DNA of 64,000 nucleotides from Leucobacter soli (GTDB taxonomy: Bacteria > Actinomycetota > Actinomycetes > Actinomycetales > Microbacteriaceae): the NCBI RefSeq assembly GCF_910593785.1, contig NZ_CAJVAP010000013.1:1-64000 (forward strand), in the 5' to 3' direction. Position numbers and translations under genes: made by a program. The notes under the pieces were generated by a model. It saw only the letters and a list, made by a program, of their open reading frames with translations. It had not been told where the DNA came from and searched no databases. Positions 4,373 to 21,594 of this stretch are shown one piece after another (positions within the stretch are counted from its first letter, which is position 1; every line of letters starts with the position of its first letter).

Positions 4373-5187
4373 GCGCCGATCCTCAGCTCGAGTGGTCCGT
4401 GCGCCCGGGCGTGTGCGGCGATCTCGTGGGTCGGCGCGATCCAGGCGCCGGTCTCCTGCAGGTGCGCGATGACGGTCTCGAGCATGGCGAGCCGGGAGGG
4501 GCGCCCCGAGAGCATCGGGTGCGTCGTGATCATCACGTGGCCCCCGAGGCGGGCGATGCCGTCGATCTCGGGCAGCCAGACGTCGAGCACTTCGCGCGGC
4601 GAACGGATCGTCTTCTCCCAGGTGTCGTTCGCGAACCAGAAGTGCGGGGCGTCGTCGAGGATCCACGAGACCGGTACCTCGATGAGGTCGTGCGTCGTGT
4701 GCCGGTAGGGGAGGATGTGGTCGAGCAGGTTCGAGCTGTAGGCGAAGCCGGCCTCCACGAGCAGGTCGAGCGTCGACGAGCTGAAATCCCACGAGGGTGA
4801 ACGGTAGCCGACGACCTCGCCGCCGAGGTCGCGGAGGGCCTCCAGCCCCGCGTAGAGCTCCTCGCGCTCTTCTTCCGGGCTGAGCGTCGTGGGCGAAGTG
4901 TGCGAATGCCCGTGATGCGCGACCTCGTGCCGGGCGGCGATGATGTCCCGCACCGCCTGCGGATGACGCAGCGCGTCCTTGCCGCACACGTAGAACGTCG
5001 CCCGGACGCCGCGCCGCTCGAGCAGATCGAGGATCAGCGGCACGCCAACCTTCGGGCCGTAAGCGCCCTGCGAGAGCACCCCGGGGGCCGAGGCGTTCGC
5101 CGGGTTCTCGCCGAGCCACACCTCCTCGGCGTCGAAGTCGAAGCTCACCGTCGCGGCGTAGCTCTTTCCGTCAGGCCAGGTCGTCAC
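4369..5187 (-). CDS. Polysaccharide-deacetylase-fold (CE4) hydrolase, possible cyclic imidase
   Basis: 272-residue NodB-homology protein. The metal-binding motifs are visible: SFDFDAE (Asp17/Asp19), the HxxxH histidines 92 and 96 in HHGHSH, and GYRSPSWDF as in the HP0310-type branch. It has no signal peptide, which argues against cell-wall deacetylation. Cytoplasmic members of this branch include allantoinase-like and, as I recall, cyclic-imide hydrolases, so amide-ring opening fits the hydantoinase neighbours better (inference). The start is GTG 5187, overlapping the hyuB stop as GTGA; the end overlaps the C45 gene as ATGA. The operon link is therefore tight. Confidence 0.82.
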   Translation of the reverse strand: MTTWPDGKSYAATVSFDFDAEEVWLGENPANASAPGVLSQGAYGPKVGVPLILDLLERRGVRATFYVCGKDALRHPQAVRDIIAARHEVAHHGHSHTSPTTLSPEEEREELYAGLEALRDLGGEVVGYRSPSWDFSSSTLDLLVEAGFAYSSNLLDHILPYRHTTHDLIEVPVSWILDDAPHFWFANDTWEKTIRSPREVLDVWLPEIDGIARLGGHVMITTHPMLSGRPSRLAMLETVIAHLQETGAWIAPTHEIAAHARAHGPLELRIGA

Positions 5188-6824
5188 AGCCGTCCCTCCA
5201 CTTCGTCCAGGTCTCGCAGCTCCTGCGGGCGGTCCGCAGGGTCGCCGAAGCCGCCACCGCCGGCGCTCTCGACCCGCACCACGGTGCCGGGCTGGAGGAT
5301 GCGCGACGTCTTGCGCGGCGTGTCGAGCACGGAGCCGTCGGGGCCGAGCACGGTGATGGTCGTCGGCAGGGCCGTACCGCCGCTCGCCGCGCCCTCCGGA
5401 GCGAAGCGGGAGTCGGTCTGCTCGGCGTAGAAGGTCGCGTGCTGCGGGTGCTCGAGGATCTCGTACTCGCGCACCAGCCCGAGGCCGCCGTTGTAGCGTC
5501 CGCGCCCCTGCGAGCCGGGCCGGAACTCGGTCTTGCGGATGCGGATGTTGTAGTTGGTCTCGACGACCTCGGTCGGCATCACGCCCACGTTCGACATGTA
5601 GGTGTCGACGCCGTCGAGCCCGTCGCCGTGCGCGGTCGCCCCGGTACCGCCACCGACCACGTCTGCCATCACGGCCTGCTGTCCGGTCGCGGGGCTCGTG
5701 GAGCCGACGTTGAAGCAGAAGAAGCTCACCGAGCTCGAGGCCACGGCGCGATCCGGCCAGATCTCGTACATCGCCCGGATCAGGGTGTCGGCCAGGCGCT
5801 GGCACGAGTTGTGCCGGATCGAGACCGCGGCCGGGGGCGTCGGATTGACGACGGTGCCCTCGGGAGCGGTGACGTCGAGGGCGCGCAGGAGGCCGTCGTT
5901 CGAGCCGAGACCCGGAGCGACGACGCAGCGCACGGCGTAGACGAGGCCCGCGCGGGCGCTCGCCCACGGGATGTTCATCGCCCCGGCGGTCTGGCGATCC
6001 GACCCCGAGAGATCGATGCTCAGGCGGCCGCCGCGCTTCTCGATGCGCGCGTGGATGCGGGTCGGGGGGCCGGCGCGGCCGTCGTCGTCGAGAGCGCCCT
6101 CCGCCTCGCCGACGCCGTCGGGCAGCTGCTCGAGCAGGCGGGTGACCGCGGCCTCGACCACGTCGAGCATGCGGGACATGACCGCGAGCATCGTGTCCTT
6201 GCCGTAGAGCCGCATGAGCTCGTGGACGCGCTCCTCGCCGAGACGGCAGGAGGCGCGCTGGGCGCGGAAGTCGCTGAGCGTGCTCAGCGGGTCGCGGAAG
6301 TTCTCGGTCAGCAGATCGACGAGCTCCTCGTTCTCGGCGCCGGCGACCGAGAGCCGCAACGGCGGGATCACAACGCCCTCGCCGTAGAGCTCGGTCAGCT
6401 CGGGGCCCTCGCTGCCGGGGTTGACGCCGCCGACATCGATGTGATGCGCTGCCGTGCCGGCCCAGGCGACGAGCTCGCCGTCGAAGAAGATCGGGATCAC
6501 GATGTTCACGTCCGGCAGATGCATGGCCCCCTGGTAGGGGTGGTTGCAGATGTAGGCGTCGTGCTCCCGGATGCGGCCGTCCCACCGCTTCAGCACGGAT
6601 TTCACGACGAGCGACATCGCTCCGAGCTGCGCCGGGATGTAGTCCGCCTGGGCGACCAGATCTCCGGTCGCGGTGAAGACGGCGCACGAGAAGTCGTCCA
6701 TGTCCCGGATGATGGGGCTGTAGCTCGAACGCTTGAGCACGCTCCCCATCTCCTCGGCGGCGGACTGCAGCGCCGCGGAGGCGACCTCAAAGGTCACGGC
6801 GTCGATCTGAAGCTCGGTGGTCAT
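5184..6824 (-). CDS. hyuB: Hydantoinase B / 5-oxoprolinase beta-type subunit
   Basis: 546 residues, full length for the HyuB family. Family landmarks seen: SSYSPIIRDMDDFSCA near residue 33, HPYQGAMHLPDV near 95, GGGTGATAHGDG near 390, YNGGLGLVREYEI, and the terminal SAGGGGFGDP. HyuA and HyuB form a cytoplasmic complex that opens 5-membered cyclic amides (hydantoins, 5-oxoproline, N-methylhydantoin) with ATP hydrolysis. The ATG at 6824 is preceded by AAGGAG. It lies 2 nt downstream of hyuA and overlaps the CE4 gene by 4 nt. Which ring is used (hydantoin, oxoproline, succinimide or other) cannot be decided here. Confidence 0.93.
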   Translation of the reverse strand: MTTELQIDAVTFEVASAALQSAAEEMGSVLKRSSYSPIIRDMDDFSCAVFTATGDLVAQADYIPAQLGAMSLVVKSVLKRWDGRIREHDAYICNHPYQGAMHLPDVNIVIPIFFDGELVAWAGTAAHHIDVGGVNPGSEGPELTELYGEGVVIPPLRLSVAGAENEELVDLLTENFRDPLSTLSDFRAQRASCRLGEERVHELMRLYGKDTMLAVMSRMLDVVEAAVTRLLEQLPDGVGEAEGALDDDGRAGPPTRIHARIEKRGGRLSIDLSGSDRQTAGAMNIPWASARAGLVYAVRCVVAPGLGSNDGLLRALDVTAPEGTVVNPTPPAAVSIRHNSCQRLADTLIRAMYEIWPDRAVASSSVSFFCFNVGSTSPATGQQAVMADVVGGGTGATAHGDGLDGVDTYMSNVGVMPTEVVETNYNIRIRKTEFRPGSQGRGRYNGGLGLVREYEILEHPQHATFYAEQTDSRFAPEGAASGGTALPTTITVLGPDGSVLDTPRKTSRILQPGTVVRVESAGGGGFGDPADRPQELRDLDEVEGRL

Positions 6825-6826
6825 GG

Positions 6827-8908
6827 CTACTGCTCCTTGCTCTCGTGCGAATCGGCGCCGATCCGCGAGTCCGTGACGACGATGTCGAGCGTGCTCGTGA
6901 CGCTCACGTGCTGCTCCGGGAGGATGACGGAGGTCGCGTCCATCTGCTGGATCACGGCCGGACCCTCGAAGGCGGTGCCGGCCGGCAGCGCGGACCGCTC
7001 GATCACCGGGACCTCTACCGCGCCGTAGCCGGGGAGCAGGATCTCCCGGCGGGTGACGACGGCCTCCTCCGGCAGGGCGGCGGCGTCGACGGGCGCCACG
7101 CGGTCGCGACTGCGGGAGATCTCGCCCGTCGCCGCGAGACGCACGGTGACGATCTCGACCGGTTCGTCATGATTGCTGTGCCCGTAGCGCTCGAGGTGGG
7201 CGGCGTGGAAGAGCTCCGGGATCGCGGCGAGCGACGCCTCGTCCCAGCCGTCGAGCGCGATGCCCAGTTCGAAGCCCTGGCCCCGGTAGCGGCAGTCGAC
7301 CTGGGCGAGCAGGGCGACCTGATCCTCCTCGATGCCGTCGCTCGCGAACTGCCTGATCGACTCGGCGACCGCCTCGGAGTACCAGGCCGCGGTCTCGCGG
7401 TACGACTCCGCATCGGCCGGCTTGAGGAGGGTCTGCGACCGGTCGATGCGCAGTCCGGCGACGAGCAGGCCGTCGGCCGCGAAGAGGCCCGGGCGCAGCG
7501 GCAGGATCACGTTCTTCAACGTCATGTGGCGGAGCATCAGCCCGGCGTGGAGCGGGCCGGCGCCGCCGAAGGGCACGAGCGAGAACTCCCGCGGATCGAG
7601 ACCGCGCTCCACGCTGACCTTGCGTACGGCGCGGATCATGTGCGCGAGACCGATGGCCAGGATCGCCTCGGCGCCCTCCTCGGCCGTCATGCCGAGCGGC
7701 GTCGCGATCCGCTCGACCGCGGCGACCGCGAGATCGCGATCGATGCGCAGTCCGCCGGCGAGCTCGCCTGCGCCGAGAGTGCCGAGCACCGCGTGCGCGT
7801 CGGTGATCGTCGGCTCCACGCCGCCGCGACCGTAGCAGGCCGGGCCGGGCACCGCCTTGGCCGAGGCCGGGCCCACCTTGAGGCTGCCGGCCTGATCGAT
7901 CCAGGCGATGCTGCCCCCGCCCGCACCGATCGTATGGATGTCAACGGTCGGGGCGAGCAGGGTGTGATCCTGCACCTCCTGCACCGTCGTGAAGGGGATC
8001 GTGGCATCGCGCAGCAGGCAGACATCGGTCGAGGTGCCGCCCATGTCGAGGCTGATGAGGTTCGGCTCGTCGAGGGTCTCCGCGAGCGCCGCGAGGCCGG
8101 CGACACCGCCGGCGGGCCCGGAGAGCACGAGCTTGTGCGCCTCGGCGCCGGCGCGCTCCGCCGGCACGCTGCCGCCGTTGGACTGCATCACGAGGAGGGG
8201 CGCCTGCACGCCCCGCGCGGCGAGGGCCTCGCTCGCGCGGTTGAGGTAGTTCTCGACCAGCGGCCGGAGCGCGGCGTTGATCGCGGTGGTCGCGGTGCGC
8301 GGGTACTCGCGGAACTCGCGCGCGATCTCGGAGGAGAGCGTCACCGGTCGATCCGGGAATGCGGCGCGTATGGCCTCGCCCGCACGGCGCTCGTGATCGT
8401 CGTTGAGGTAGCTGAAGAGGAAGGAGACGGCGATCGACTCCGGATCGTCCCGCCGCAGCCGTTCGATGATCTCGGAGAGCTCGGCCTCGTCGAGGCCGCT
8501 GACGACCTCGCCGGACGAGTCGATCCGCTCGGTGACCTCGTACCGGAGACCGCGCGGGACGAGCTCGCTCGGGCGCTCGGGCGTGAGGCTGTAGACGTCG
8601 GGCCGGTTCGATTGGCGGTAGCCGAGCACATCGCGGAAGCCGCGGGTCGTCACCAGGGCGGCGCGGCCGAGGTTGCCGGTCAGCGTGGCGTTCGTGGCGA
8701 CGGTCGTGCCGTGGCACACCAGGGATACATCGGTCAGCTCGACTCCGAGCCCCTCGAGCGCCGCCACCGCGTTGCTGAGTCCGCGTGACGGGTCTTCGGG
8801 CGTGGAGGCGACTTTCGCCTCGTGGATCTCGCCGTTCGATCCACGGGCGATGGCGTCGGTGAACGTGCCACCGGCATCGATGCTGATGGTCCAACGTTGG
8901 GCTGTCAT
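6827..8908 (-). CDS. hyuA: Hydantoinase A / 5-oxoprolinase alpha-type subunit (ATPase)
   Basis: 693 residues, the usual HyuA length. The actin-like ATPase fold is marked by DAGGTFTDA at residue 10, HGTTVATNA near 65, DMGGTSTDV near 288, and GAGGGSIA near 325. It supplies the ATP-dependent activation step for ring opening with HyuB. ATG 8908 was chosen because family members begin about six residues before the DAGGTFTD motif and a GGAG lies upstream; a longer reading would add about 100 residues lacking family character. It is first gene of the leftward operon. Its promoter probably uses CAGAAT at 8983-8978 with the dyad at 9002-9021 just upstream. Confidence 0.94.
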   Translation of the reverse strand: MTAQRWTISIDAGGTFTDAIARGSNGEIHEAKVASTPEDPSRGLSNAVAALEGLGVELTDVSLVCHGTTVATNATLTGNLGRAALVTTRGFRDVLGYRQSNRPDVYSLTPERPSELVPRGLRYEVTERIDSSGEVVSGLDEAELSEIIERLRRDDPESIAVSFLFSYLNDDHERRAGEAIRAAFPDRPVTLSSEIAREFREYPRTATTAINAALRPLVENYLNRASEALAARGVQAPLLVMQSNGGSVPAERAGAEAHKLVLSGPAGGVAGLAALAETLDEPNLISLDMGGTSTDVCLLRDATIPFTTVQEVQDHTLLAPTVDIHTIGAGGGSIAWIDQAGSLKVGPASAKAVPGPACYGRGGVEPTITDAHAVLGTLGAGELAGGLRIDRDLAVAAVERIATPLGMTAEEGAEAILAIGLAHMIRAVRKVSVERGLDPREFSLVPFGGAGPLHAGLMLRHMTLKNVILPLRPGLFAADGLLVAGLRIDRSQTLLKPADAESYRETAAWYSEAVAESIRQFASDGIEEDQVALLAQVDCRYRGQGFELGIALDGWDEASLAAIPELFHAAHLERYGHSNHDEPVEIVTVRLAATGEISRSRDRVAPVDAAALPEEAVVTRREILLPGYGAVEVPVIERSALPAGTAFEGPAVIQQMDATSVILPEQHVSVTSTLDIVVTDSRIGADSHESKEQ

Positions 8909-9001: not shown

Positions 9002-9021
9002 GGCATGCGTTATTCGACGTA
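9002..9021 (-). promoter_or_regulatory. Operator candidate A (upstream of hyuA)
   Basis: The plus strand reads GGCATGCGTTATTCGACGTA. The reverse complement of 12484-12503, before the transporter operon, is identical except at two positions (C for T, T for C). The core is an imperfect dyad around TTATTCGA. Relative to each promoter the motif has the same orientation and the same 18-nt spacing to the -10. It is a likely binding site of the island's own regulator. Confidence 0.65.
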
Positions 9022-9048
9022 CGCGACCCGGTCGATCGCGGGGATGCC

Positions 9049-9066
9049 ATCGGTCATTTGACTGAT
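9049..9066 (+). promoter_or_regulatory. Operator candidate C (upstream of the SDR operon)
   Basis: This 18-bp dyad, ATCGGTCATTTGACTGAT, has arms of 8 bp matching at 7 positions around a TT centre. Its core GTCATTTGAC is identical to the core of the motif at 12484-12503. The dyad centre lies about 48 bp upstream of the start expected from the -10 at 9094, a usual place for activators. Confidence 0.55.
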
Positions 9067-9093
9067 GCCGCGCGGCGCGACCCGGAGGCAGAG

Positions 9094-9195: not shown

Positions 9196-9966
9196 ATGGG
9201 TGGTTCACCGGTCGCGATCGTTACCGGGGCGGGGGCGGGCATCGGGCTCGCGATCGCCAGGCGCTTGGTCCGGGACGGGTTCCGCCTCGGCCTCTGCGAC
9301 CTCGACACGGGTCTTCCCGACGCCTTCGCCGCGGAGATCGCTGACGGTCGCGCCTTCGCCGTGGTCGGCGACATCAGCGATGAGCGCGTCCGGGACGAGC
9401 TCATCGGCGGGGTGCGCAAGCGATTCGGCCGGCTCGACGCCCTGGTCAACAACGCCGCGAGCGGCGGGCAGTCCGCCGAGATCGCCGAGATGGACCTGGC
9501 GACGCTCCGGCGGACGCTCGATATCAACGTCGTCGCCGTGGTCGCGCTCACACAGGCCGCGGTGCCGCTCCTGGAGGAGTCCGGACGGGGGAGCGTCGTC
9601 AACCTCGGTTCCGTCTTCTCCGACGAGCCCGTCGCCCGCGGCGGCGACTACTGCATGAGCAAGGGCGCCGTCGAGGTGCTGAGCCGCGTCCTCGCCCTCG
9701 AGCTCGGCCCGCGCGGCATCACCTGCAACACGGTCGCCCCCGGGTACATCCTGACCCGGATGCACGAGGCGGAGGTCGAGGTCCAGGCGCAGCAGCGCGG
9801 GATCACGACCGAGCAGCGCCTCGCCGAGCTGCGCGCGGAGGTGCCGGTCGGGCGTCACGGCACGCCGGACGACATCGCCGACGCCGTCGCCTGGCTGATC
9901 GGGACCGAGAGCCGGTACATCAGCGGCCACAAGCTCTCGGTGAACGGCGGGATCTCCTTCTCATGA
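9196..9966 (+). CDS. Short-chain dehydrogenase/reductase (active type)
   Basis: 256-residue classical SDR. The cofactor loop TGAGAGIG starts at residue 10, followed by NNAAS, catalytic Ser139, and YCMSK (Tyr152, Lys156); the C-terminal half ends with the usual SGHKLSVNGG. It should oxidise or reduce a hydroxy/keto group with NAD(P)H. Asp35 and Asp37 at the end of beta-2 (CDLDTG) suggest NAD(H) preference. The start was set at ATG 9196, after a GCGGAGAG ribosome site; an upstream ATG at 9127 would add an arginine-rich tail. It is first gene of a three-gene operon, overlapping the next gene as ATGA. Confidence 0.9.
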   Translation: MGGSPVAIVTGAGAGIGLAIARRLVRDGFRLGLCDLDTGLPDAFAAEIADGRAFAVVGDISDERVRDELIGGVRKRFGRLDALVNNAASGGQSAEIAEMDLATLRRTLDINVVAVVALTQAAVPLLEESGRGSVVNLGSVFSDEPVARGGDYCMSKGAVEVLSRVLALELGPRGITCNTVAPGYILTRMHEAEVEVQAQQRGITTEQRLAELRAEVPVGRHGTPDDIADAVAWLIGTESRYISGHKLSVNGGISFS

Positions 9967-10694
9967 CCGGTGAGGCCGAGCCGGGACTCGTCGTCGCCGG
10001 CCATCTGGACGATGTCGCCGAGGCCCTGCTGCGGCTCGCCGTCTCGCGCGGATGGCGGGTCGCGTTCATCGGAACGGAGCACTCGACGCGACTCTGCGAG
10101 GTCGGTGTGCAGATGCATGTCGCGGACCTCGCGGACTCGGTCGCGATCGAGGCGCTCCTCTCGAACCTCACCTCGCAGTGGGGTCGTGCGCCGATCGCGG
10201 TCGTGCACATCGGGCATCTCGAGCGCACGAGACCGGCGGTCATCGAGTCCTCCGAGGGTTGGGACGCGTTCCAGAACGAGCAGCTGCGCGCCGGCTTCGT
10301 CCTCGCGCAGGCGGGGGCCCGGGAGATGCTGCGTCTGCGCGGAGGCGCCCCGGTCGACGACGGGGCCGTCGTGCTGGTCGGCGAGGCGAGCGCGGCCCGG
10401 GGGCTGCCGGGCCATCCTCAGACGGTCGCCGGCGCGGCGCTCGCCGGCCTCGCCGGCATGACGCGGCAGCTGGCCGTCGAATGGGGCCGCCTCGGGATTC
10501 GCGTGAACATGGTCGAGGCGGGCATCGTCGGCCCGGATTCCGAGCAGGACTTCGATGTGCTGCGACGGGTGCCCCTCGCCCGCGCCGGCACCCCGGAGGA
10601 GATCGCGGAGGCTTGCTACTATCTCATCAGCCGGGCCTCGTCTTACGTAACGGGAGCGGTCCTGCCGGTCGACGGGGGATTCCTGGCGACGTAG
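9963..10694 (+). CDS. Degenerate SDR-fold protein, probably non-catalytic
   Basis: 243 residues. The C-terminal half is plainly SDR: RQLAVEWGRLGIRVNMVEAGIVG, then PLARAGTPEE and VTGAVLPVDGG. The catalytic signature is missing. The TGxxxGIG loop is replaced by VAGHLDDVAEAL, no NNAG is seen, and where YxxxK should stand the sequence reads HPQTVAGAALAG. It overlaps the active SDR upstream by 4 nt, so the two are made together and a heteromer with a structural or regulatory subunit is a reasonable idea. It could also be an evolving paralogue of the third SDR at 17444, whose C-terminus it resembles. Confidence 0.8.
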   Translation: MTGEAEPGLVVAGHLDDVAEALLRLAVSRGWRVAFIGTEHSTRLCEVGVQMHVADLADSVAIEALLSNLTSQWGRAPIAVVHIGHLERTRPAVIESSEGWDAFQNEQLRAGFVLAQAGAREMLRLRGGAPVDDGAVVLVGEASAARGLPGHPQTVAGAALAGLAGMTRQLAVEWGRLGIRVNMVEAGIVGPDSEQDFDVLRRVPLARAGTPEEIAEACYYLISRASSYVTGAVLPVDGGFLAT

Positions 10695-10724: not shown

Positions 10725-12434
10725 ATGAGTCATTGGGTGGTCGAACGGTCGATCGATGTCGACACGGTCGATGCGACGCTGCCGAAGCAGGTGCCGGCCG
10801 AGATCTGGGGGTATGCGAGGGCGTTCCTCCTCATCGAGCGCTTGAGCGCGCGCTTCGTCTGGCGCGCGGATTCCGAATGGCTCGACGTGCAGCTGGTGCT
10901 CGAGAGCTCCGAGCGGGTGCTCGTGCGGGTCTCTACGACCGAGATGCCTCGCGGCGTCACCGCGCGCGAGCTCGACGTGCTCACCCTGGTCGCGCTTGGC
11001 CTCACGAACGCGGGGATCGCGGAACGGCTCGGCACTTCCGCGCGCACCGTTTCGAGTCAGCTGGAGCGGCTGCTCGAGAAACTGGGTCAGAGCTCCCGCG
11101 GCGGGCTCGCCGCCATCGCTGTCGATCTCGGCCTCCTGCGGCTCCCGCTCCCCGGCGGGCCGCCCGAGGAAGGCGGCATCGCGGTCGCCCAGCTGGAACT
11201 CGCCTCTCACCGGCGCCTCGACCGTTCGCAGCCGGGGATCAGGGCCGACGTCTCCGCGCGGGTTCCGATCCGGCTCGGAGTCATCGTGCCCGACGGCGCG
11301 GGCTCCGACTCGGACCAGGTGCGCAACGGCGCACTGCTGGCGATCGACGAGATCAATCAGCTGGGCGGCATCGGGGGCCGGACCATCGAGGTCTTCCAGG
11401 AGCGGGTCGACATATTCGACTGGTCGAGTGTGGAGGCGGGACTCCAGCGGATATTCGACAGCGACGTCGACGCGATCATCACGAGCTACGTGAGCGCGGA
11501 GCATCCCCAGTTCATCGAGCGGATCGCCGAGTACGGTCGGCCGTTCCTGCACACTGCGACGTTCGAGGCCGACGTCCTCCGTACCGAGTCCGAGCCATGG
11601 CGCTACGGCATGGTGTTCCAGACGTGCGCCTCGGAGACCTACTACGGGCCGGGCATGCTCAGGCTCCTCGGCAAGCTCGAGGCGGCGGATCTGTGGCGCG
11701 GCCGGACGCGGAGCATCGTGTCGATCGAGATGCCCTCGGAGAGCATGCACCTGACCACACCGGCGTTCCTCGACGCCGCCGACGCGCAGGGGTGGCGGGT
11801 AGCGGCCACCATCGGGACGCCGGTCGGCGAGACGGACTGGCCGGCGGTGATTGAAGAAGCTCGGAGCCACGATCCGGACGTCGTGCTGATCGCGAACTTC
11901 GTCGACCGGGAGCTGATCGAGTTCCAGCGGGCCTTCCTCCGAGCGCCGATGCCGGCGCTCGTGTACGGGATATACACCCCCTCGATCCCGTCGTTCACGA
12001 AATCCCTGGGCGAGGGCGCGCACGGCATCATCTGGTCGACCACGACCGGCACCTACGACGACGACCTCGGGCGGCGCTTCCGGAACCAGTACCGGGTGAA
12101 GTACGGCGAGGATCCCGGCTGGTCCCAGGCCGGCGCCGTCTACGACCAGGTGCGCATGCTGGCCGCCGCGTGGTCATCGGTGGATTCGCGCTCGGTCGCC
12201 GACGTGGTCCGCTACCTGCGACGCTGGCCCTACCGGGGCGTCAACGGCGTCTACTACTTCGGCGAGACCGGCCAGGCGCCGAAGCTCTACCCGGACATGA
12301 CGAGCGACGCGGCGCTCGGTCAGGCGCATCTCGTCTACCAGATCGGGCCCGCCGGGCACGCGCTGCTCGATCCGGAGCCGTTCGGGATCATCACCGACTT
12401 CGTGCGGCCGAGCTGGTTCGGGGCGTCCGACTGA
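10725..12434 (+). CDS. LuxR-type HTH fused to a Leu/Ile/Val-binding-protein-like sensor domain
   Basis: 569 residues. Residues 78-135 are a LuxR/GerE-type helix-turn-helix (TARELDVLTLVALGLTN, then IAERLGTSARTVSSQLERLLEKLG). Residues 182-550 are a complete type I periplasmic-binding fold of the Peripla_BP_6 class. There is no signal peptide or membrane segment, so the ligand domain sits in the cytoplasm joined to a DNA-binding domain. The ligand domain resembles the adjacent secreted binding protein along its length, for example GIIWSTTTGT against GVIWSTTIGT and HLVYQI against HLTYQI. Known relatives in logic are AmiC, a cytoplasmic binding-protein-fold sensor, and LuxR regulators, but LuxR HTH domains are normally C-terminal. 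It is likely the activator acting at the shared operators. The start ATG 10725 follows GGGAG; a 30-nt gap separates it from the SDR gene. Confidence 0.88.
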   Translation: MSHWVVERSIDVDTVDATLPKQVPAEIWGYARAFLLIERLSARFVWRADSEWLDVQLVLESSERVLVRVSTTEMPRGVTARELDVLTLVALGLTNAGIAERLGTSARTVSSQLERLLEKLGQSSRGGLAAIAVDLGLLRLPLPGGPPEEGGIAVAQLELASHRRLDRSQPGIRADVSARVPIRLGVIVPDGAGSDSDQVRNGALLAIDEINQLGGIGGRTIEVFQERVDIFDWSSVEAGLQRIFDSDVDAIITSYVSAEHPQFIERIAEYGRPFLHTATFEADVLRTESEPWRYGMVFQTCASETYYGPGMLRLLGKLEAADLWRGRTRSIVSIEMPSESMHLTTPAFLDAADAQGWRVAATIGTPVGETDWPAVIEEARSHDPDVVLIANFVDRELIEFQRAFLRAPMPALVYGIYTPSIPSFTKSLGEGAHGIIWSTTTGTYDDDLGRRFRNQYRVKYGEDPGWSQAGAVYDQVRMLAAAWSSVDSRSVADVVRYLRRWPYRGVNGVYYFGETGQAPKLYPDMTSDAALGQAHLVYQIGPAGHALLDPEPFGIITDFVRPSWFGASD

Positions 12435-12483
12435 GCCCGCCTCGGCGCAGTGCGGAAGCGCCGATTCACGGCCTCTGCGAGGA

Positions 12484-12503
12484 TACGTCAAATGACGCAT
12501 GCC
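12484..12503 (+). promoter_or_regulatory. Operator candidate B (upstream of the transporter operon)
   Basis: TACGTCAAATGACGCATGCC, the counterpart of the site before hyuA. Its centre is the dyad CGTCA-AA-TGACG. It ends 18 nt before the -10 candidate TAACGT at 12522-12527, so its end covers the -35 position. The rest of 12435-12587 holds no gene. Confidence 0.65.
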
Positions 12504-12521: not shown

Positions 12522-12527
12522 TAACGT
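12522..12527 (+). promoter_or_regulatory. Candidate -10 box of the Liv-type transporter operon
   Basis: TAACGT, placed 28.5 bp from the centre of the dyad at 12484-12503. That distance equals the one in the hyuA promoter, which supports both assignments. Confidence 0.5.
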
Positions 12528-12587: not shown

Positions 12588-13925
12588 ATGAGCGAGAACA
12601 AGGCGGCTTCGAGCGGGGCCAAGAAGAGCGGCATCAGCCGTCGCGATCTGGTGAGGAACGCGGGGATCGCGGGTGTGGGCGGCCTCGTGGTCGGCGGCGC
12701 CGGCGGCTACCTCCTCGCGCCGCGCGATTCGGCATCCGGCGGTGGCGCGGCGGCGAGCGGTGAAACGCTCAAGGTCGGCATCTTCGCCCCGGTGACCGGC
12801 CCGTACTCGGGCGACGGCCAGGAGATGGTGCGCGGTGCCGAGATGGCGATCGCCGACATCAACGCGAGCGGCGGCGTGCTCGGGCAGCAGCTCGAGCTGG
12901 TGACTGCGGATATCAGCGACATGGCGCCCGAGAACTTCGTGCAGGCCGCGGAGCGCCTCGTCTCCCGCGAGGGCTGCGTCGCGGTCTCGGGCGGGTACAC
13001 CACCGCGACCTCGGTGGAGTTCGACACCTTCGCGCAGGCGGGCGTGCCGATGTTCCATACGAACACGCTGCAGGACAACACGAACTACGTGGTCGACAAC
13101 GGCATCACGAACATCTTCCAGTGCTGCCCGACGGAGATCTGGTACGCGAGCGGCTTCATCAAGCTGATGCAGGAATGGATCGACGCGGGCACCTGGACGC
13201 CCTCCTCGAAGACCGCTGCGGTGATCTCCAGCAACGATTCGTACTCGATCTCGATCGCGAACGTGCTGCAGGAGGGCATCAAGGAGCTCGGGTGGGAGAT
13301 CACGATGTACGAGGAGGTGTCGGTGCCGTACGCGGACTGGGGTCCGCAGCTCTCCAAGATCCGCAACGATCCGCCCGGGCTGATCTTCATCACCGATTAC
13401 CTGGCCGGCGACCTGGCGAGCTTCGCGAAGCAGTTCGCGTCCGCACCGACGAACTCGCTGCTCTACCAGCAGTACGGGCCGAGCGTGCCCGAGTACCTCG
13501 AGCTCGCGGGCGATGCCGCGAACGGGGTGATCTGGTCGACGACGATCGGCACCCTGCCCGACGAGAAGGGCGCAACGTTCCGGGACCGCTACCAGGCGGA
13601 GTACGGCTCCGAGGCCGGGCTCAGCCAGTCCGGCGCGCAGTACGACATCTTCCGTCTCTGGGCGCGCGCGGCCGCGGTCGCGGGTGACGCGAACGACTTC
13701 GAGCGTGTCGCCGCCGCGGTGCGGGACAACACGTTCCGCGGCGTGGTCGGCACCTACGCCTTCGATCAGACCGAGCTGACGGCGGTGCCCTACCCGGACA
13801 AGATCAACGATCCGAGCCTCGCGATGCCGCACCTCACCTACCAGATCAAGGGCGGCGAGCAGGTGCTCATCTCGCCGGCGCCGTACACGAACGGCGAGTT
13901 TGAGCTGCCGAGCTGGGTGTCCTAG
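12588..13925 (+). CDS. ABC transporter substrate-binding protein, Liv/urea/amide type, Tat-exported
   Basis: 445 residues. The N-terminus carries a twin-arginine signal: SRRDLV followed by a glycine- and alanine-rich hydrophobic stretch, ending near residue 45. Residues 60-430 are a Peripla_BP_6 domain beginning LKVGIFAPVTGPYSGDG. It captures the ligand outside the cell for the four downstream transporter subunits. The start was chosen at ATG 12588 because AAGGAG (12577-12582) lies 5 nt before it. A GTG at 12582 overlaps the ribosome site. Only 4 nt separate it from the first ATPase gene. Its resemblance to the sensor domain of the gene upstream implies a shared ligand. Confidence 0.92.
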   Translation: MSENKAASSGAKKSGISRRDLVRNAGIAGVGGLVVGGAGGYLLAPRDSASGGGAAASGETLKVGIFAPVTGPYSGDGQEMVRGAEMAIADINASGGVLGQQLELVTADISDMAPENFVQAAERLVSREGCVAVSGGYTTATSVEFDTFAQAGVPMFHTNTLQDNTNYVVDNGITNIFQCCPTEIWYASGFIKLMQEWIDAGTWTPSSKTAAVISSNDSYSISIANVLQEGIKELGWEITMYEEVSVPYADWGPQLSKIRNDPPGLIFITDYLAGDLASFAKQFASAPTNSLLYQQYGPSVPEYLELAGDAANGVIWSTTIGTLPDEKGATFRDRYQAEYGSEAGLSQSGAQYDIFRLWARAAAVAGDANDFERVAAAVRDNTFRGVVGTYAFDQTELTAVPYPDKINDPSLAMPHLTYQIKGGEQVLISPAPYTNGEFELPSWVS

Positions 13926-13929
13926 TCGG

Positions 13930-14724
13930 ATGCAGGACGCGATACTCGACGTTCGGGGCGCGACCAAGCGGTATGGCGGCCTGGTCGCGGTGAACGATGT
14001 CAGCTTCGAGGTGGAGCGCGGCGAGATCTTCGGGATCGCCGGTCCGAACGGGGCCGGGAAGACGACGCTGTTCGATGTGGTGACGGGGATGGTGCGCGCG
14101 TCGGGCGGGGAGATCCTGTTCAAGGGCGAACCGATCCACAACGCGTCGATCCACGAGATCTGCCACCGGGGGATCACGCGCACGTTCCAGAAGCCGTCGG
14201 TGTTCGACAGCGAGACGGTGATGGGCAACGTGGTCGTCGGTGGGCACTTCGGATCGGGGAAGCCCTGGTGGAAGAGCCTGCAGCGCGACCCGGAGGTGTG
14301 GGATCGCGCCGCCGAAGCGCTCGATTTCGTGGGACTCGCGGAGCGTGCGGACGAGGTGTCGGGCGATCTGCCGGTCTACGACAAGAAACGGCTGATGATC
14401 GCGTCCGCCCTGGCCTCGTCGCCGGAACTGCTGTTCCTCGACGAGCCGTTCGGCGGTCTCACCGACGACGAGATCGACGCGCTGCTCGTCCTGCTGAAGC
14501 GGATCAACGAGGAGCGGGGGATCACGATCGTGCTGATCGAGCACGTGATGCGTGCGCTGATGGCCCTCGCGGATCGGATCCTGATCATGGACCAGGGCAA
14601 GACGCTGCTCCAGGGGCAGCCGAAGGCGGTGATGAGCGATCCGGAGGTGGTGCGCGTGTATCTGGGCACCGCCGCCGACGAGGTCGTCGCGCAGGGGAAG
14701 GAGACCCCGGATGCTGAAGATTGA
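13930..14724 (+). CDS. livG: ABC transporter ATPase, LivG-like
   Basis: 264 residues; energises the importer at the inner face of the membrane. Walker A is GPNGAGKTTL near residue 37, and Walker B is LLFLDEP, followed by the D-loop region GGLTDDEID. The C-loop is unusual: where LSGGQ or LSYGQ is expected the sequence reads LPVYDKKRLMIASAL. This looks like a real divergence and not a frameshift, because the frame runs cleanly through it. Start ATG 13930 gives the standard N-terminus ILDVRGATKRYGG. It overlaps livF by 14 nt. Confidence 0.9.
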   Translation: MQDAILDVRGATKRYGGLVAVNDVSFEVERGEIFGIAGPNGAGKTTLFDVVTGMVRASGGEILFKGEPIHNASIHEICHRGITRTFQKPSVFDSETVMGNVVVGGHFGSGKPWWKSLQRDPEVWDRAAEALDFVGLAERADEVSGDLPVYDKKRLMIASALASSPELLFLDEPFGGLTDDEIDALLVLLKRINEERGITIVLIEHVMRALMALADRILIMDQGKTLLQGQPKAVMSDPEVVRVYLGTAADEVVAQGKETPDAED

Positions 14725-15421
14725 TGGAGTGGTCGCCGGATACGGTGGCACGACGATCGTGCAGGGCGTCTCGCTCGAGGTCCCGGCGGGGGAGTGCGCG
14801 GTGCTGGTCGGGCCGAACGGGCACGGGAAGACCACGCTGCTGCGCGCGATCAGCGGCCTGATCAAGGTACGTGACGGCGGCATCGCCTTCGACGGCGAGG
14901 ACATCACGCGCGAGCGGGCGGAGAAGATCGTGGAGCGCGGTCTCATCCATATCCCGCAGGGCGACCTCGTGTTCCCCGATATGACGGTCGCCGAGAACCT
15001 GCAGCTGGGAGCGTTCACGAAGTCGGCAGCACGGCAGTCGAAGGCCCGGCTGGAAGAGGTGTACGACATCTTCCCGAGGTTGCGCGAACGCGAGGGGCAG
15101 CGCGCGCGGACGCTCTCGGGCGGAGAGCGCCGCATGCTGGCGATCGGCCGCGGCCTGATGGGCGACGCGAAGCTGATCATGATCGACGAGCCCAGCCTGG
15201 GCCTCGCCCCGGTGATCGTCGACGAGGTGTACCGGCAGTTGCGCCGCATCGTGGACTCGGGCATGACGGTGCTGCTCGTGGAGGAGAACTTCCGGCGGGG
15301 CCAGTCGCTGGCCGACCGCATCCATCTCGTCGAGAACGGCGAGATCGTCCGCTCGGGGCAGGCCGACGAGGTGCTCGACGACCAGGCCGTCCGGGAAACG
15401 TATCTGGGGGTCGCAGAATGA
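14711..15421 (+). CDS. livF: ABC transporter ATPase, LivF-like
   Basis: 236 residues, usual LivF length. Walker A is GPNGHGKTTL, the signature LSGGERRMLAIGRGL is intact, and Walker B is LIMIDEPSLGLAP. It forms an ATPase pair with the LivG-like subunit, whose signature loop is altered, so the two ATP sites may be unequal. The ATG at 14711 lies inside the end of livG, and its stop overlaps the start of livH as ATGA, so translation is probably coupled. Confidence 0.94.
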   Translation: MLKIDGVVAGYGGTTIVQGVSLEVPAGECAVLVGPNGHGKTTLLRAISGLIKVRDGGIAFDGEDITRERAEKIVERGLIHIPQGDLVFPDMTVAENLQLGAFTKSAARQSKARLEEVYDIFPRLREREGQRARTLSGGERRMLAIGRGLMGDAKLIMIDEPSLGLAPVIVDEVYRQLRRIVDSGMTVLLVEENFRRGQSLADRIHLVENGEIVRSGQADEVLDDQAVRETYLGVAE

Positions 15422-16305
15422 ACCTCGTGCTGCAGACGATCGTCAGCACGATCGTGCAGGGCTCGCTGCTCGCGCTCATCACCATCGGTATGAGCCTCGT
15501 GTACGGCACGCTGCGCGTGCTGAACATGGCGCAGGGCGTGATGGTGATGGTGGGCGCCGTAGCGGCCTACATGACGGTCGACACGCTCGGCGTCTCGCCG
15601 TGGGTGTCGATCATCGCGGCGGTGCTCGTGACCGCGCTGCTGGGCATGCTCAGCTACGGGGTCGGCATCAGCCGGCTGATCGGCCGCGCGGGCGTCGACT
15701 TCGAGATGACGGCGTTCATCTCGACCTTTGCGATCGCGTCGATCGTGCAGAACATCGTGCAGCTGATCAACGGACCCAGGCAGAAGGACTTCCCGGTGCT
15801 GCTGGACGGGCGGATCACCCTCACCGCGGGCGTCTCCATCACCTGGCATCAGATCCTCACCGCGGTGATCGCGATCGCGGCCCTGGGGCTGCTCGGGCTC
15901 TTCCTCACCAAGTCCCGATACGGGCTCGCGATCGTCGCGGTGGCGCAGAATCTCGACGCCGCGCGGCTGATGGGGATCCCCGCTCGACGGGCGTACGTGC
16001 TCACTATGGGGCTCGCGGCGGGTTTGGCCGGGCTCGCGGGCGTGCTGCTCGCTCCGGTGTACTTCGTATCGCCGACGATGGGGGACCTGCCGCTGCTGCA
16101 GGCGCTGATCGTCGCGATCTTCGCCGGGCTGGGGAGCACGAAGGGCACCATCATCGCCGCCTACATCATCGGTTTCGTGCAGGCGGCGGTCTCGATCTTC
16201 TGGACCTCGACGTATGCGCTGCCCGTGCTGTACGCCCTGATCGTGGTGGTGCTGATCGTGCGCCCGTACGGCATCGCCGGTAAGCCTCAGGAGGCCAGAC
16301 TATGA
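15418..16305 (+). CDS. livH: ABC transporter permease, LivH-like
   Basis: 295-residue inner-membrane protein with about eight hydrophobic segments. The N-terminal GSLLALITIGMSLVYGTLRVLNMAQG is the hallmark of the LivH branch, and GLGSTKGTIIAAYIIGFVQ near residue 240 is the permease coupling region. It forms the membrane channel with LivM. Both ends overlap neighbours by 4 nt. Confidence 0.93.
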   Translation: MNLVLQTIVSTIVQGSLLALITIGMSLVYGTLRVLNMAQGVMVMVGAVAAYMTVDTLGVSPWVSIIAAVLVTALLGMLSYGVGISRLIGRAGVDFEMTAFISTFAIASIVQNIVQLINGPRQKDFPVLLDGRITLTAGVSITWHQILTAVIAIAALGLLGLFLTKSRYGLAIVAVAQNLDAARLMGIPARRAYVLTMGLAAGLAGLAGVLLAPVYFVSPTMGDLPLLQALIVAIFAGLGSTKGTIIAAYIIGFVQAAVSIFWTSTYALPVLYALIVVVLIVRPYGIAGKPQEARL

Positions 16306-17459
16306 CCACCAACGCAACCAGGACCGTGCTCGCCGGCGTGCGTTGGAACGGCCGCGCCATGGGCTGGCCGCAGCCGCGCGCACTGCTGGGCGTCGTCGTC
16401 CTGCTGGTCGCGATCGCGCTTCCGTTCATCGTGCCGGATCGCAGCTGGCTGACGACCGCGACGCTCGCGATGATCTGGATCACGCTCAATCAGAGCTGGA
16501 ACCTGGTGCTCGGATACGGCGGCGTTTGGAACTTCGGACAGCTCGCGTTCTACGCGCTGGGAGCCTATGCGGCCGCACTGCTGACCATCCACGTGGCGAT
16601 GCCGGCGTGGCTGAGCATCGTCGTCGGCGGCATCATCTCCGGCGGCCTCGCACTGCTGCTGTCCATCCCGATCCTGCGCCTGCGCGGTATCTACGTGTCG
16701 CTGCTGACCTTCGGGTTCGCGGAGGTCGTGCGCCTGCTGATCATCGCGGACGGGTCCGGGTTCACCGGTGGCCCGTACGGGCTCTCAGGAATCGACGGGT
16801 TCGGGGTGAGCGGCCCCGGGGCAGCGAACGTGAACTACTGGGTGACGCTCGGGGTAGCGGTCGCGACGACGCTCATCGTGCTGTTCCTCGTGCGCTCCCC
16901 GCTGGGGAACGGGATGATCGCGATGCGGGACAACCCGGCGCTCGCGTCTGCGCGCGGCGTCGGGCAGAAGACCTACCAGATGCTCGTCTTCGCGATCTCC
17001 GGGTTCCTCGCCGGGGTCGCAGGCGCCCTGTACGCGCACGTGTTCAAGGTCGCTTCGCCCACGCTGATGGGGCTGGGCGCGATGACGCTGCTGGTCACGA
17101 TGCTCGTGGTCGGGGGCTTGGGGACCGTGGTCGGGCCGGTCATCGGCACGCTGCTGATCGCGTTCGTGCAGATGCAGCTGCAGGACGTTCCCGAGATCCG
17201 GGTCGCCGCGCTCGGCGTGGTGCTGCTCGCGGTGATCCTGCTGATGCCGCGCGGGCTCGTCCCGTTCTTCAGTCATCTGTGGGTCGGGTTCCAGGGTTGG
17301 ATGGCGCACGAGGACGCGGAGGACGAGGACTCGGATGAGCTCCTGGATGCCGAGGTCGGGTCGGAGACCGTCGCGGTCCCGGCGGACGACTCCGGCATCG
17401 CCGGCGGGGCCCCCGCTTCCGGGGACCCGGCCGACTCGGGGGCTCAGGAGGCCAGGTAG
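16302..17459 (+). CDS. livM: ABC transporter permease, LivM-like, with acidic tail
   Basis: 385-residue membrane protein. Residues 20-320 carry the LivM fold; NQSWNLVLGYGGVWNFGQ near residue 63, GLSGIDGF and the loop RDNPALASARGVG are characteristic. The last 50 or so residues form a hydrophilic tail rich in Asp and Glu (AHEDAEDEDSDELLDAE) that typical LivM proteins lack. The last 16 nt overlap the end of the convergent SDR gene, so there is no room for a terminator between them. Confidence 0.92.
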   Translation: MTTNATRTVLAGVRWNGRAMGWPQPRALLGVVVLLVAIALPFIVPDRSWLTTATLAMIWITLNQSWNLVLGYGGVWNFGQLAFYALGAYAAALLTIHVAMPAWLSIVVGGIISGGLALLLSIPILRLRGIYVSLLTFGFAEVVRLLIIADGSGFTGGPYGLSGIDGFGVSGPGAANVNYWVTLGVAVATTLIVLFLVRSPLGNGMIAMRDNPALASARGVGQKTYQMLVFAISGFLAGVAGALYAHVFKVASPTLMGLGAMTLLVTMLVVGGLGTVVGPVIGTLLIAFVQMQLQDVPEIRVAALGVVLLAVILLMPRGLVPFFSHLWVGFQGWMAHEDAEDEDSDELLDAEVGSETVAVPADDSGIAGGAPASGDPADSGAQEAR

Positions 17460-18172
17460 CCGCCGTCGACCGGGAGCACCGCGCCGGTGATGTAGCCCGC
17501 TCCCTCGCCCGCCAGGAAGAGGCAGGCCGCGGCGACGTCGTCGGCGGTGCCCAGCCGCCTCGCCGGCAACGCCGCCAGCATCGCCGCGGTGGACGCCTCG
17601 TTCTGGGTGATGGTCGTCATCGGCGTGTCGATCACCCCGGGAGCGACGGCGTTGACCCGGATGCCGCGCGCGCCGAGTTCGACGGCGAGCTGGCGGGTGA
17701 GCGATACGACCGCGCCCTTGCTCGCCGCGTAGGCCGCACCCGGCTCCTCCTCGTCCCCGCTCGCGTAGGCGATCGAGGTGAGCAGGACGATCGCCCCGGC
17801 CTCCATCGCGCGGGCCGCGGCCTGGGCGACCACGAAAGACCCGGTGCCGTTCACCCGCATGATCCGCTCCCACTCGTCGAGGGGGAGGTCCAGCAGCGAC
17901 TTGAAGCGGTAGATGCCGGCGCAGTGGATGACAGCGTCGGGCGCCCCGCCCAGGATCTCGGCGGCGTCGTCGAAGACGTGTGCGACACTCGCCGGGTCAG
18001 TGATATCGGCGGTACGGGCGGTGAAGCCGGGCGCCGACCAGGCGCTGTCGTCGAGGTCGACGCCGAGCACCCGGCCGCCGGTGTCGAGGACCATCTGCGC
18101 CGTGGCGCGGCCGATGCCCGACATGGCGCCGGTGACGATCACTCGTCGTGGGAAGAGGCGTTCGATGCGCAC
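17444..18172 (-). CDS. Short-chain dehydrogenase/reductase
   Basis: 242-residue classical SDR with all signature elements: TGAMSGIG at residue 14, CAG at 84-86 in place of NAG, Ser133, and Tyr148/Lys152 in YAASK. The end reads TGAVLPVDGGYLAS, nearly the same as the degenerate SDR at 9963. The start is GTG 18172, preceded by AGGAGG. The neighbourhood (transporter, racemase, two more SDRs) suggests it acts on a product of the same pathway. It converges with and overlaps livM by 16 nt. Confidence 0.9.
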   Translation of the reverse strand: MRIERLFPRRVIVTGAMSGIGRATAQMVLDTGGRVLGVDLDDSAWSAPGFTARTADITDPASVAHVFDDAAEILGGAPDAVIHCAGIYRFKSLLDLPLDEWERIMRVNGTGSFVVAQAAARAMEAGAIVLLTSIAYASGDEEEPGAAYAASKGAVVSLTRQLAVELGARGIRVNAVAPGVIDTPMTTITQNEASTAAMLAALPARRLGTADDVAAACLFLAGEGAGYITGAVLPVDGGYLAS

Positions 18173-18308
18173 GGGTGGGTCCTCCTGGGGTCGAAGCGGG
18201 AGATGCCGGTTCGGCATTCCAGCATTCCAGCACAGGAGCGGGACGCCGCGCCTCGGCAGAATGACGGAGACGGGAGCCCGCCGGGTGCGCCGGCCGGTCG
18301 CCGGGGCG

Positions 18309-18998
18309 TCAGGCGAGGGCGCGGTCGACGGCGGCCTCGATGTGCAGCTTCGCGGTGGGGAAGACGGGGACGGGGCTGTCGGCCTGCGACACCAGCAGCT
18401 CGATCTCGGTGCAGCCGAGGATGATCCCCTCGGCGCCGTCGTCGACGAGCCGCCGGATGATGCCGCGGAAGGTCTCCCGTGTCGCATCGCTCACGACCCC
18501 CATCGCGAGCTCCCCGAAGATCGCGCCGTGGATCGCCTCGCGATCCGCGGCACCGGGGACGACGACCTCGATGCCGTGGCCGGCGATCCGATCGCGGTAG
18601 AACGCCTTCTCCATGGTGAACGAGGTGCCGAGCAGCGCGACCTTCTCCAGTCCCCGCTCGCGCACGGCCTCCGCGGCGACGTCCCCGATGTGGAGCACTG
18701 GCACCGACACGGCCGCCTGCACCCGATCGACGAGCAGGTGCATGGTGTTGGTGCAGATCAGGATCATGTCGGCGCCACCGGCTTCGAGCCATCGTGCGGC
18801 GTCGGCGAGCCGCTCGCCCGCCTCGTCCCACTTCGCGGCCTGCTGCAACTCGGAGATCTCCTGGAAGTTGAGCGACGCGAGGGCGATGCGCGCCGAGTTC
18901 AGGCCGCCGAGGCGATTCCGCACGAGCTCGTTCGCCTCGCGATAGTAGACCGCGGTCGATTCCCAGCTCATCCCGCCGATCAGCCCGATCGTCCGCAT
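18309..18998 (-). CDS. Aspartate/glutamate (hydantoin) racemase-family protein
   Basis: 229 residues. The two catalytic cysteines of cofactor-independent racemases are present: Cys82 in ICTNTMH and Cys196 in LGCTEIEL. The N-terminus IGLIGGMSWEST is typical of the YgeA/Asp racemase branch. Hydantoin racemase belongs to the same superfamily, which fits the hydantoinase genes 10 kb away, but substrate cannot be assigned. The gap of 136 bp to the SDR gene downstream contains the short direct repeat GCATTCCAGCATTCCAGCA and no gene. Confidence 0.88.
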   Translation of the reverse strand: MRTIGLIGGMSWESTAVYYREANELVRNRLGGLNSARIALASLNFQEISELQQAAKWDEAGERLADAARWLEAGGADMILICTNTMHLLVDRVQAAVSVPVLHIGDVAAEAVRERGLEKVALLGTSFTMEKAFYRDRIAGHGIEVVVPGAADREAIHGAIFGELAMGVVSDATRETFRGIIRRLVDDGAEGIILGCTEIELLVSQADSPVPVFPTAKLHIEAAVDRALA

Positions 18999-20817: not shown

Positions 20818-21594
20818 ATGCCCCGATCCATTCCGACCACCCGGCGACTCGCACTCGGCGGCGCCATCGCGCTCGCGCTGGGCGTGACCTCGCTGACCGG
20901 TGCGACCGAGCTCCTGCCCGGGAACCCGCTCACGCCGGCGCCTGCATACGCCGCCGGTGACGTCTGCGACATCTGCGGTCTCGCCTTCGACCCCGTGGCC
21001 TGCGAGGCGATCGGAGGCTGGCCCTACGACTCCGTCGAGGAGGAGCCGCCCCCGGCGGTCGCCGGCGGCACCACTCCCTCGACGCCCAGCACGCCGAAGC
21101 CGGAATCCGGCGGCAAGAAGGAGACGGGCGGTTCCGGCTCCTCGAAGCCCTCCGGCGGTTCCGGCTCCTCGAAGTCCTCGGGCTCCTCGAAGTCCTCCGG
21201 GTCATCGAAGTCCTCCGGGTCGTCCAACGCGAGCACCGGCGGCACCGGATCGGAGAACAGCGCGTCGGCGAGCGACTCGTCCGCATCGGAGAGCACGAGC
21301 GCCAAGAAGAAGAAGTCCGACGGCAAGAACTCGAAGAAGAAGGTCGAGGAGGAGAGCACGACCGGAACGGACGCCGCCTCCACCGCGGCCCCGATCTCGC
21401 TCGCGGCCCCCGCCGAGGAGACGACGGAGGCCGCCGCAGCGGCGACCGCGCAGGATCCCGTGCTGCAGCTCGCCGGTCCGGCCACGCTCGGCGGACTCGG
21501 ACTCGCCGGAGCCGGGCTCCTCGGCTGGTGGTGGCTGCGCCGCCGGACCCAGGGTGCCGCCTCGAACCCCGACGACGGACTCTCCCTCGACTGA
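20818..21594 (+). CDS. Secreted, C-terminally anchored Ser/Gly/Lys-rich protein with CxxC
   Basis: 258 residues, no recognised domain family. Residues 1-46 form a Sec signal peptide with cleavage after AYA. The mature N-terminus has three cysteines (CDIC and VAC). Then comes a long low-complexity stalk with repeated KSSGSS units and a lysine-rich patch. The C-terminus has the layout of a wall or membrane anchor: a glycine/leucine-rich hydrophobic segment, GWWWLRRR, and a short tail. There is no LPXTG motif, so a plain membrane anchor is likelier than sortase attachment. The gene starts 33 nt after the symporter with GAAGGA before it. Function unknown; the cysteines and the neighbours hint at surface thiol chemistry. 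Confidence 0.75.
   Translation: MPRSIPTTRRLALGGAIALALGVTSLTGATELLPGNPLTPAPAYAAGDVCDICGLAFDPVACEAIGGWPYDSVEEEPPPAVAGGTTPSTPSTPKPESGGKKETGGSGSSKPSGGSGSSKSSGSSKSSGSSKSSGSSNASTGGTGSENSASASDSSASESTSAKKKKSDGKNSKKKVEEESTTGTDAASTAAPISLAAPAEETTEAAAAATAQDPVLQLAGPATLGGLGLAGAGLLGWWWLRRRTQGAASNPDDGLSLD

Follow-up and report, generated by a model that had tools for sequence, protein, structure and literature searches.

The window, the 64,000 nucleotides at positions 1 to 64,000 of Leucobacter soli contig NZ_CAJVAP010000013.1 (assembly GCF_910593785.1), carries a gene, here called REG, between a set of enzyme genes and an ABC transporter operon. The genes, and the domains of REG, are arranged as follows:

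3260 to 4396, minus strand (start approximate): C45, an autoproteolytic acyltransferase or hydrolase of the C45/AAT family
4369 to 5187, minus strand: PDEAC, a PuuE-like enzyme of the polysaccharide-deacetylase fold and a steady neighbour of REG
5184 to 6824, minus strand: HyuB, a caprolactamase-beta-like subunit
6827 to 8908, minus strand (start chosen by eye): HyuA, a caprolactamase-alpha-like ATP-dependent lactam or hydantoin hydrolase
9196 to 9966, plus strand (start chosen by eye): SDRa, a short-chain dehydrogenase
9963 to 10694, plus strand: SDRb, a short-chain dehydrogenase
10725 to 12434, plus strand: REG, a predicted LuxR-HTH/Peripla_BP_6 one-component regulator, 569 aa from ATG start to stop
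10725 to 10940, plus strand: small alpha/beta region at the start of REG, aa 1-72, modelled as beta-alpha-beta-beta-beta and without Pfam match
10959 to 11117, plus strand: GerE/LuxR helix-turn-helix (HTH) of REG, aa 79-131, from Pfam
11265 to 12419, plus strand: Peripla_BP_6 ligand domain of REG, aa 181-565 (Pfam matches aa 181-518, and the resemblance to SBP runs as far as aa 564)
12588 to 13925, plus strand: SBP, a secreted Peripla_BP_6 substrate-binding protein with a Tat-type leader judged by eye
13900 to 17459, plus strand: ABC transporter, with ATPases at 13900-14724 and 14711-15421 and BPD_transp_2 (Liv-type) permeases at 15418-16305 and 16302-17459

SDRa, SDRb and REG apparently form one operon. 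Beyond the transporter, another SDR gene and a gene of the Asp/Glu/hydantoin racemase family (17444-18998, minus strand) run towards the transporter operon, and 20818-23606 encodes a Ser/Lys-rich protein without Pfam match and a secreted-looking protein with 'KAGSWGP' repeats.

The sequence-only reading had described REG as a LuxR-type HTH near the N-terminus joined, in one chain, to a complete binding-protein domain that lacks a signal peptide, and Pfam bears out this architecture. GerE (PF00196) matches aa 79-131, in the first quarter of the protein, at E 2e-11 and 43.8 bits against a curated cut-off of 23.5, and Peripla_BP_6 (PF13458) matches aa 181-518 at E 1.4e-29. Both domains exceed the Pfam cut-offs in all six REG relatives scanned. 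The HTH thus precedes the sensor rather than occupying the C-terminal position typical of LuxR/GerE regulators, and no LacI-type HTH (PF00356) appeared among the Pfam matches at E <= 0.001. An AF2 model computed from 11 related sequences was of middling confidence (mean pLDDT 74, pTM 0.60); behind the HTH, its helices and strands alternate as in a binding-protein domain. The best solved match, both in sequence and in fold, is 3h5l (Foldseek against the PDB: E 5.3e-24, prob 1.00). This Ruegeria (Silicibacter) pomeroyi protein is named a putative ABC transporter protein, and the match covers the binding domain of REG only; together with the Peripla_BP_6 match it assigns a type I binding-protein fold to the C-terminal part. 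Inspection by eye of the N-terminus of REG revealed neither a hydrophobic stretch nor an export leader, as the earlier reading had held, and SBP starts with the twin-arginine-type leader SRRDLVRNAGIAGVGG, likewise read by eye.

Relatives of REG occur in other Leucobacter genomes (63-73% identity; 81% in one Leucobacter metagenome assembly) and in Mycolicibacterium/Mycobacteriaceae, which account for four of ten loci from named genomes (51-53%). Among 54 Leucobacter genomes, 19 matched the regulator profile at 1e-60; in 17 of these the match spans both domains, and in the other two (G003 and G010) it consists of fragments only. One genome holds a second, divergent regulator copy (L112, G014 contig 10) beside two SDR-like genes. 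Matches spanning both domains were found in at least 4 of 396 genomes of the phylum and at least 5 of 297 of the order, the window's genome being counted in each; these are lower bounds, since only 3-4 candidates were scored per genome. Counts outside the Actinobacteria come from a plasmid collection, in which 71 records matched and four cover at least 80% of the REG query. Two of the four are relatives at 34-35% identity on Agrobacterium tumefaciens and Paenarthrobacter plasmids, and the other two are broken copies on Paracoccus plasmids. On the Paracoccus pantotrophus plasmid (L041) the regulator is split into several 'hypothetical protein' ORFs near hydantoinase, PucR, cupin and FAD-oxidoreductase genes. 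The count of proteins with this domain order, which had been proposed beforehand as a check, finds the GerE plus Peripla_BP_6 build rare in the phylum and order samples. No description of such a protein turned up in the open-access literature, to which the search was confined; in PMC6055005 the GerE and Peripla_BP_6 terms stand in different table rows, and in PMC3466318 the word 'periplasmic' occurs 0 times. In these samples and papers, then, nothing points to a common build already characterised in a different role, which would have refuted the earlier reading.

Both intact plasmid copies (CP115909 and NZ_CP053551) are annotated 'ABC transporter substrate-binding protein', which would make REG an ordinary binding protein of an ABC transporter. 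We find this scarcely credible: the HTH scores above the Pfam cut-off in all seven proteins scanned, REG included, no leader is seen by eye, and no ABC transporter genes are annotated around these two copies.

The ligand half of REG does resemble the adjoining SBP throughout the domain, as had been noticed from the sequence (29% identity and 48% positives along aa 182-564, E 5e-49). From this likeness the sequence-only reading had suggested that the sensor arose by capture of the transporter's own binding protein. A maximum-likelihood tree was computed from 62 binding domains, half of them (31) encoded by ORFs with an HTH and the other half by ORFs that lack it. Rows were admitted if the matched stretch was at least 330 aa long, which excludes fragments such as L019, L020 and a broken Paracoccus copy; of an initial 70 rows, 8 were dropped beforehand, being either fragments at the edge of a locus or second copies of included genes, and near-copies remain. 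All 31 regulator domains fall on one side of a single branch (support 99/96, and 100% of 200 bootstrap trees), in a tree that is unrooted and has several long branches. Moreover, SBP is closer to 3h5l, from another organism (275.5 bits), than to the REG domain (about 173 bits). Since the regulators form one clade apart from the transporter proteins, the REG domain is not a recent copy of SBP; on the tree, the two are apparently old paralogs, and the fusion of HTH and binding domain looks old and single. Capture from the neighbouring SBP was accordingly discarded on the 62-row tree. Moreover, only some members of the family have a transporter of the SBP type next to the regulator: none was seen in the fetched stretches, of 10-20 kb or so, around L108-L119, L039 and L040.

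The earlier reading also had REG detect the imported ligand with the pocket that captures it in SBP. Because the SBP model was too poor (mean pLDDT 58.9), we judged the pocket by conservation, aligning 17 regulators together with 15 SBPs. Fifty columns are conserved with the same residue in both groups (at least 85% of regulators and 90% of SBPs), and three are conserved with different residues. Among residues that we take, from Liv-type proteins, to line the pocket, those common to REG and SBP are H276/H157, T279/T160, Q299/Q178, E304/E183 and Y307/Y186; Y417/Y296, P419/P298, S420/S299 and W437/W316 are also common, and Y255/Y137 nearly so, with F in 3 of the 15 SBPs. The idea of a common pocket thus stands for the columns conserved alike, but SBP residues D217, Y219 and N159, present in 15/15 SBPs, are retained in only 1, 0 and 1 of the 17 regulators. 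The REG partner of SBP Y219 differs by one place between two alignments (E339 versus S340). Overall, capture is very unlikely. It draws on the identity along the domain, on the 50 columns and on a gene order that is alike in Leucobacter and Mycolicibacterium, and it conflicts with the separate regulator clade, with the many regulators that have no such transporter alongside and with the three diverging pocket positions.

What the binding domains recognize can be narrowed. The acidic residue that presumably holds the alpha-amino group in Liv-type proteins is replaced by Tyr in both the REG and SBP families; a free alpha-amino acid is therefore an unlikely ligand for either. Of five near, transporter-type relatives annotated on plasmids, four adjoin hydantoinase, amidase, dimethylformamidase-like or aldoxime-dehydratase genes, which suggests that the ligands of this family of binding domains are amide-type. 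Two further members of the family start without a visible leader: one on Aminobacter plasmid p1 (L104:2412-6209), which follows a response regulator and an ATP-binding protein and is possibly a cytoplasmic sensor of another build, and one at L042:4983-6194.

Among the genes around the regulators, PDEAC is the most regular. A PDEAC-family gene is present in 24 of 25 stretches examined around regulators, the exception being L112. Of the 24 genomes that contain a full-length REG, 23 have their best match to a PDEAC profile no more than 6 kb from a regulator and on its contig, G001 being the exception; the profile was built from 16 REG neighbours, 11 of them from the 24 genomes tested, so that part of this count holds by construction. 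Of the 13 genomes outside the profile, 12 have PDEAC within this distance of REG. Profile matches at 1e-10 number 1-5 per genome in the 24 genomes. All 17 Leucobacter genomes with a full-length regulator have a PDEAC match above 350 bits; of the 37 without one, two genomes have a match above 330 bits and 13 more a weaker one at 1e-40. The closest solved relatives of PDEAC are 3rxz and 3qbu, followed by PuuE and its kin. A C45 gene is found in 16 of the 25 stretches, and either a C45 or a CN-hydrolase gene in 20; the CN-hydrolase gene adjoins PDEAC in L039, L040, L041 and L115. Cyclic imides are opened by enzymes of the PDEAC fold, after which nitrilase-type enzymes cleave the resulting half-amide, a scheme for which our literature search found no supporting paper. 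HyuA was recognized in the relatives' stretches by means of an Agrobacterium query. On the Agrobacterium plasmid (L039:10800-19632) the regulator adjoins a cluster of PucR, cupin, FAD oxidoreductase, HyuB, HyuA and SSADH genes; this cluster resembles genes for N-methylpyrrolidone degradation, and a search for a paper on a cluster of this type gave none.

Gap alignments of the intergenic regions revealed short fixed blocks in otherwise diverged DNA, which together make up the 20-bp palindrome CATnCGTCAnnTGACGnATG. Two sets of gaps yielded the pattern, those between hyuA and SDRa in 8 Leucobacter loci and those between REG and SBP in 11 loci from Leucobacter and Mycolicibacterium. Three sites in the window, and a hexamer next to one of them, are of interest:

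9004 to 9023: candidate operator O1, 13 of 16 informative positions, faces hyuA
9048 to 9067: candidate operator O2, 14/16, faces SDRa-SDRb-REG
12482 to 12501: candidate operator O3, 15/16, upstream of the transporter operon
12522 to 12527, plus strand: -10-like hexamer TAACGT, at a conserved offset from O3

O1 and O2 share the divergent hyuA/SDR promoter region and O3 precedes the SBP-ABC operon; the 64-kb window holds no further site at 12/16 or better. Three matches with at most three mismatches were reached by 27 of 100 shuffles of the window. As O1 and O2 match at only 13 and 14 of 16 positions and shuffles equal the count this often, the case for an operator rests on conservation and placement. 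Eighteen held-out loci (300,521 bases) contained 12, 8, 7 and 4 sites at or above 13, 14, 15 and 16 of 16, against a shuffle expectation of 1.95, 0, 0 and 0 (20 shuffles each), in tests that do not correct for relatedness of the loci. In all three loci of the f31 family, SBP is preceded by a 16/16 site and PDEAC by one at 15/16. Sites before PDEAC also occur in three loci of a clade that lacks the transporter, at 12-14/16 (14/16 in L109), and L116 has a site at 13/16, the matches at 12 and 13 being singly weak. A convincing copy was absent from 10 of the 18 held-out loci (L108, L111, L112, L114, L115, L117-L119, L039 and L041), which carry more divergent regulators; the operators of these divergent branches may differ from CATnCGTCAnnTGACGnATG.

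Across 54 Leucobacter genomes, the palindrome with at most one mismatch was found in 11, and a control with the reversed pattern gave 0. It was present in 10/10 genomes with a close REG (>830 bits), in 0/7 with only a divergent REG and in 1/37 without a full-length REG. At least six of the ten positive genomes had served to derive the pattern, so the weight of the scan lies in the absences. Among 356 genomes of the phylum, the exact palindrome occurs in 3, and these are precisely the f31 genomes in which, besides the window's, the fusion was found; the genome of the window itself lacks a 16/16 copy. The seven genomes that have a divergent REG and lack the site would be expected if another regulator bound the palindrome and REG acted elsewhere or were silent. 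This we regard as quite unlikely, given that the presence of the site follows REG across genera, that no other transcription factor was detected among the scanned window proteins around the sites, and that the Paenarthrobacter plasmid stretch, which has a 16/16 site beside REG, contains no other annotated regulator.

Sites were also found away from the regulator. A second exact site in G151 (contig 56, L129:1501-1520), on a contig other than the regulator's, lies ~100 bp upstream of a gene whose product matches the window's HyuA at 58% identity across 460 aa; in the window, O1 faces hyuA itself. On the other side of this site is a divergent aldo/keto-reductase-like ORF, named by eye. In G022 (contig 36, L124:3462-5832), again on a contig other than the regulator's, an exact site stands upstream of two tandem histone-deacetylase-domain genes, a possible extra member of the regulon. 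Off-locus matches in an intergenic inverted-repeat region of G013 and within an ORF on G000 contig 4 appear to be chance hits; G000 contig 27 holds one more match, with two mismatches.

The sites have a fixed relation to the promoters that they precede. Across 36 sites, the distance from the first base of the site to that of a -10-like hexamer is 41-42 nt; the mean score peaks at this distance, at a height attained by 0 of 500 shuffles, and the SBP, SDRa, HyuA and PDEAC promoter classes each peak at 41. These 36 are what remains of 46 site views after 10 were taken away. With all 46 and four later views (50 in total) the peak stays at 41 (0/500 shuffles), and it persists when each lineage and promoter class contributes a single site (7 sites, 0/500); the 14 views outside the 36 by themselves still peak at 41 (5/500). 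The regulator-facing side of the three f31 sites has no -10 at 41-42 nt (score 1 of 5 in 3/3), and L116 also misfits the spacing. Given this constant distance, the site would cover the -35 region and have its centre near -42. The lux box and class II activator sites occupy the same position, and sites over the -35 region occur in repressors too.

REG could accordingly be a LacI-like repressor that sits on the palindrome over the -35 region in its apo form and is released by an amide ligand. Its domain order is that of LacI, and the site would cover the -35 region. We nevertheless consider repression unlikely, as the fixed centre near -42 fits activator-dependent promoters and LuxR-type HTH proteins are mostly activators; sigma-70 -35/-10 pairs are lacking as well, although their absence between 8850 and 13000 counts for little (0 found, 0.2 expected). 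A terminator scan found none.

We favor, as the simplest and probable account, a cytoplasmic, effector-dependent one-component activator whose amide-bound form would bind CATnCGTCAnnTGACGnATG near -42 of promoters for the uptake and catabolism of cyclic amides. This account builds on what was obtained by computation, namely the architecture, the single sensor clade, the conservation of the palindrome, the constant spacing between it and a -10-like hexamer, and the genes that the sites precede. The C-terminal domain of REG would close on an amide of the pathway, which may be a cyclic imide, a hydantoin, a lactam or a ring-opened amide. In the closed and probably dimeric protein, the N-terminal LuxR HTHs would then bind the 20-bp palindrome, and from the site centred near -42 REG would recruit RNA polymerase, thus activating rather than repressing. 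Its predicted targets are the promoter of hyuA-hyuB-PDEAC-C45 leftwards, that of SDRa-SDRb-REG rightwards, which would amount to autoregulation, and, as a third, the promoter of the SBP-ABC transporter operon.

Several known systems share part of this design. Proteins of the LacI/GalR family have an N-terminal HTH and a C-terminal type I periplasmic-binding-protein fold, and are cytoplasmic and ligand-controlled. REG has the same domain order and type I fold and, by our proposal, the same location and ligand control, but its HTH is of the LuxR/GerE type, its sensor is Peripla_BP_6 (Liv/amide type) instead of a sugar-type domain, and its promoter geometry is activator-like. With the LuxR/FixJ/NarL regulators REG shares the GerE HTH and a candidate operator placed near -42, as is the lux box; it differs in that the HTH stands near the N-terminus and a binding-protein domain follows. 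The earlier description of REG as AmiC and its regulator merged into one chain is apt for function, but the layout, with an N-terminal HTH and a C-terminal type I domain, is that of LacI. As described in PMC3795266, AmiC of Pseudomonas aeruginosa is related to ABC binding proteins, senses amides and controls their catabolism, and NasS is a predicted cytoplasmic, leaderless relative of the ABC binding protein NrtA; the same text warns that NasS-like sensors may be misannotated. The solved AmiC chain 1pea was among our profile matches (E 1.8e-8). AmiR, the partner of AmiC, is a separate ANTAR antiterminator, whereas REG carries a DNA-binding HTH in the same chain, and no ANTAR match was found among the 10 window proteins scanned. 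NasS-NasT, in turn, differs from REG in consisting of two proteins, with an RNA target and nitrate/nitrite as ligand. REG would combine the layout of LacI, the sensing logic of AmiC/NasS and the DNA-binding part of LuxR/NarL, with full membership in neither the LacI nor the AmiC/NasS group.

Taken as a family, these proteins would be an unnamed group of one-component activators in which the LacI layout was reinvented once from a LuxR HTH and an amide-type Peripla_BP_6 domain. The group would have reached several families of actinobacteria as well as plasmids in Agrobacterium, Paenarthrobacter and, in broken form, Paracoccus, while being filed as transporter parts; its main branch would have its own 20-bp operator near -42, and its conserved cyclic-amide regulon a PuuE-like core. 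On balance we lean towards this broader picture. What is new here is the candidate operator with its candidate regulon, which makes the function of REG directly testable. Regulators of this build can hide as 'ABC transporter substrate-binding protein', and a check for an HTH would recover them. The candidate operator makes the regulon predictable from sequence, having pointed to the off-contig hyuA and the pair of histone-deacetylase-domain genes, and it offers a direct route to the ligand and to the substrates of unassigned amide enzymes. REG also provides a parallel to LacI for how a binding-protein fold came to control DNA binding, and it might serve as a sensor component that responds to lactams, imides or hydantoins.
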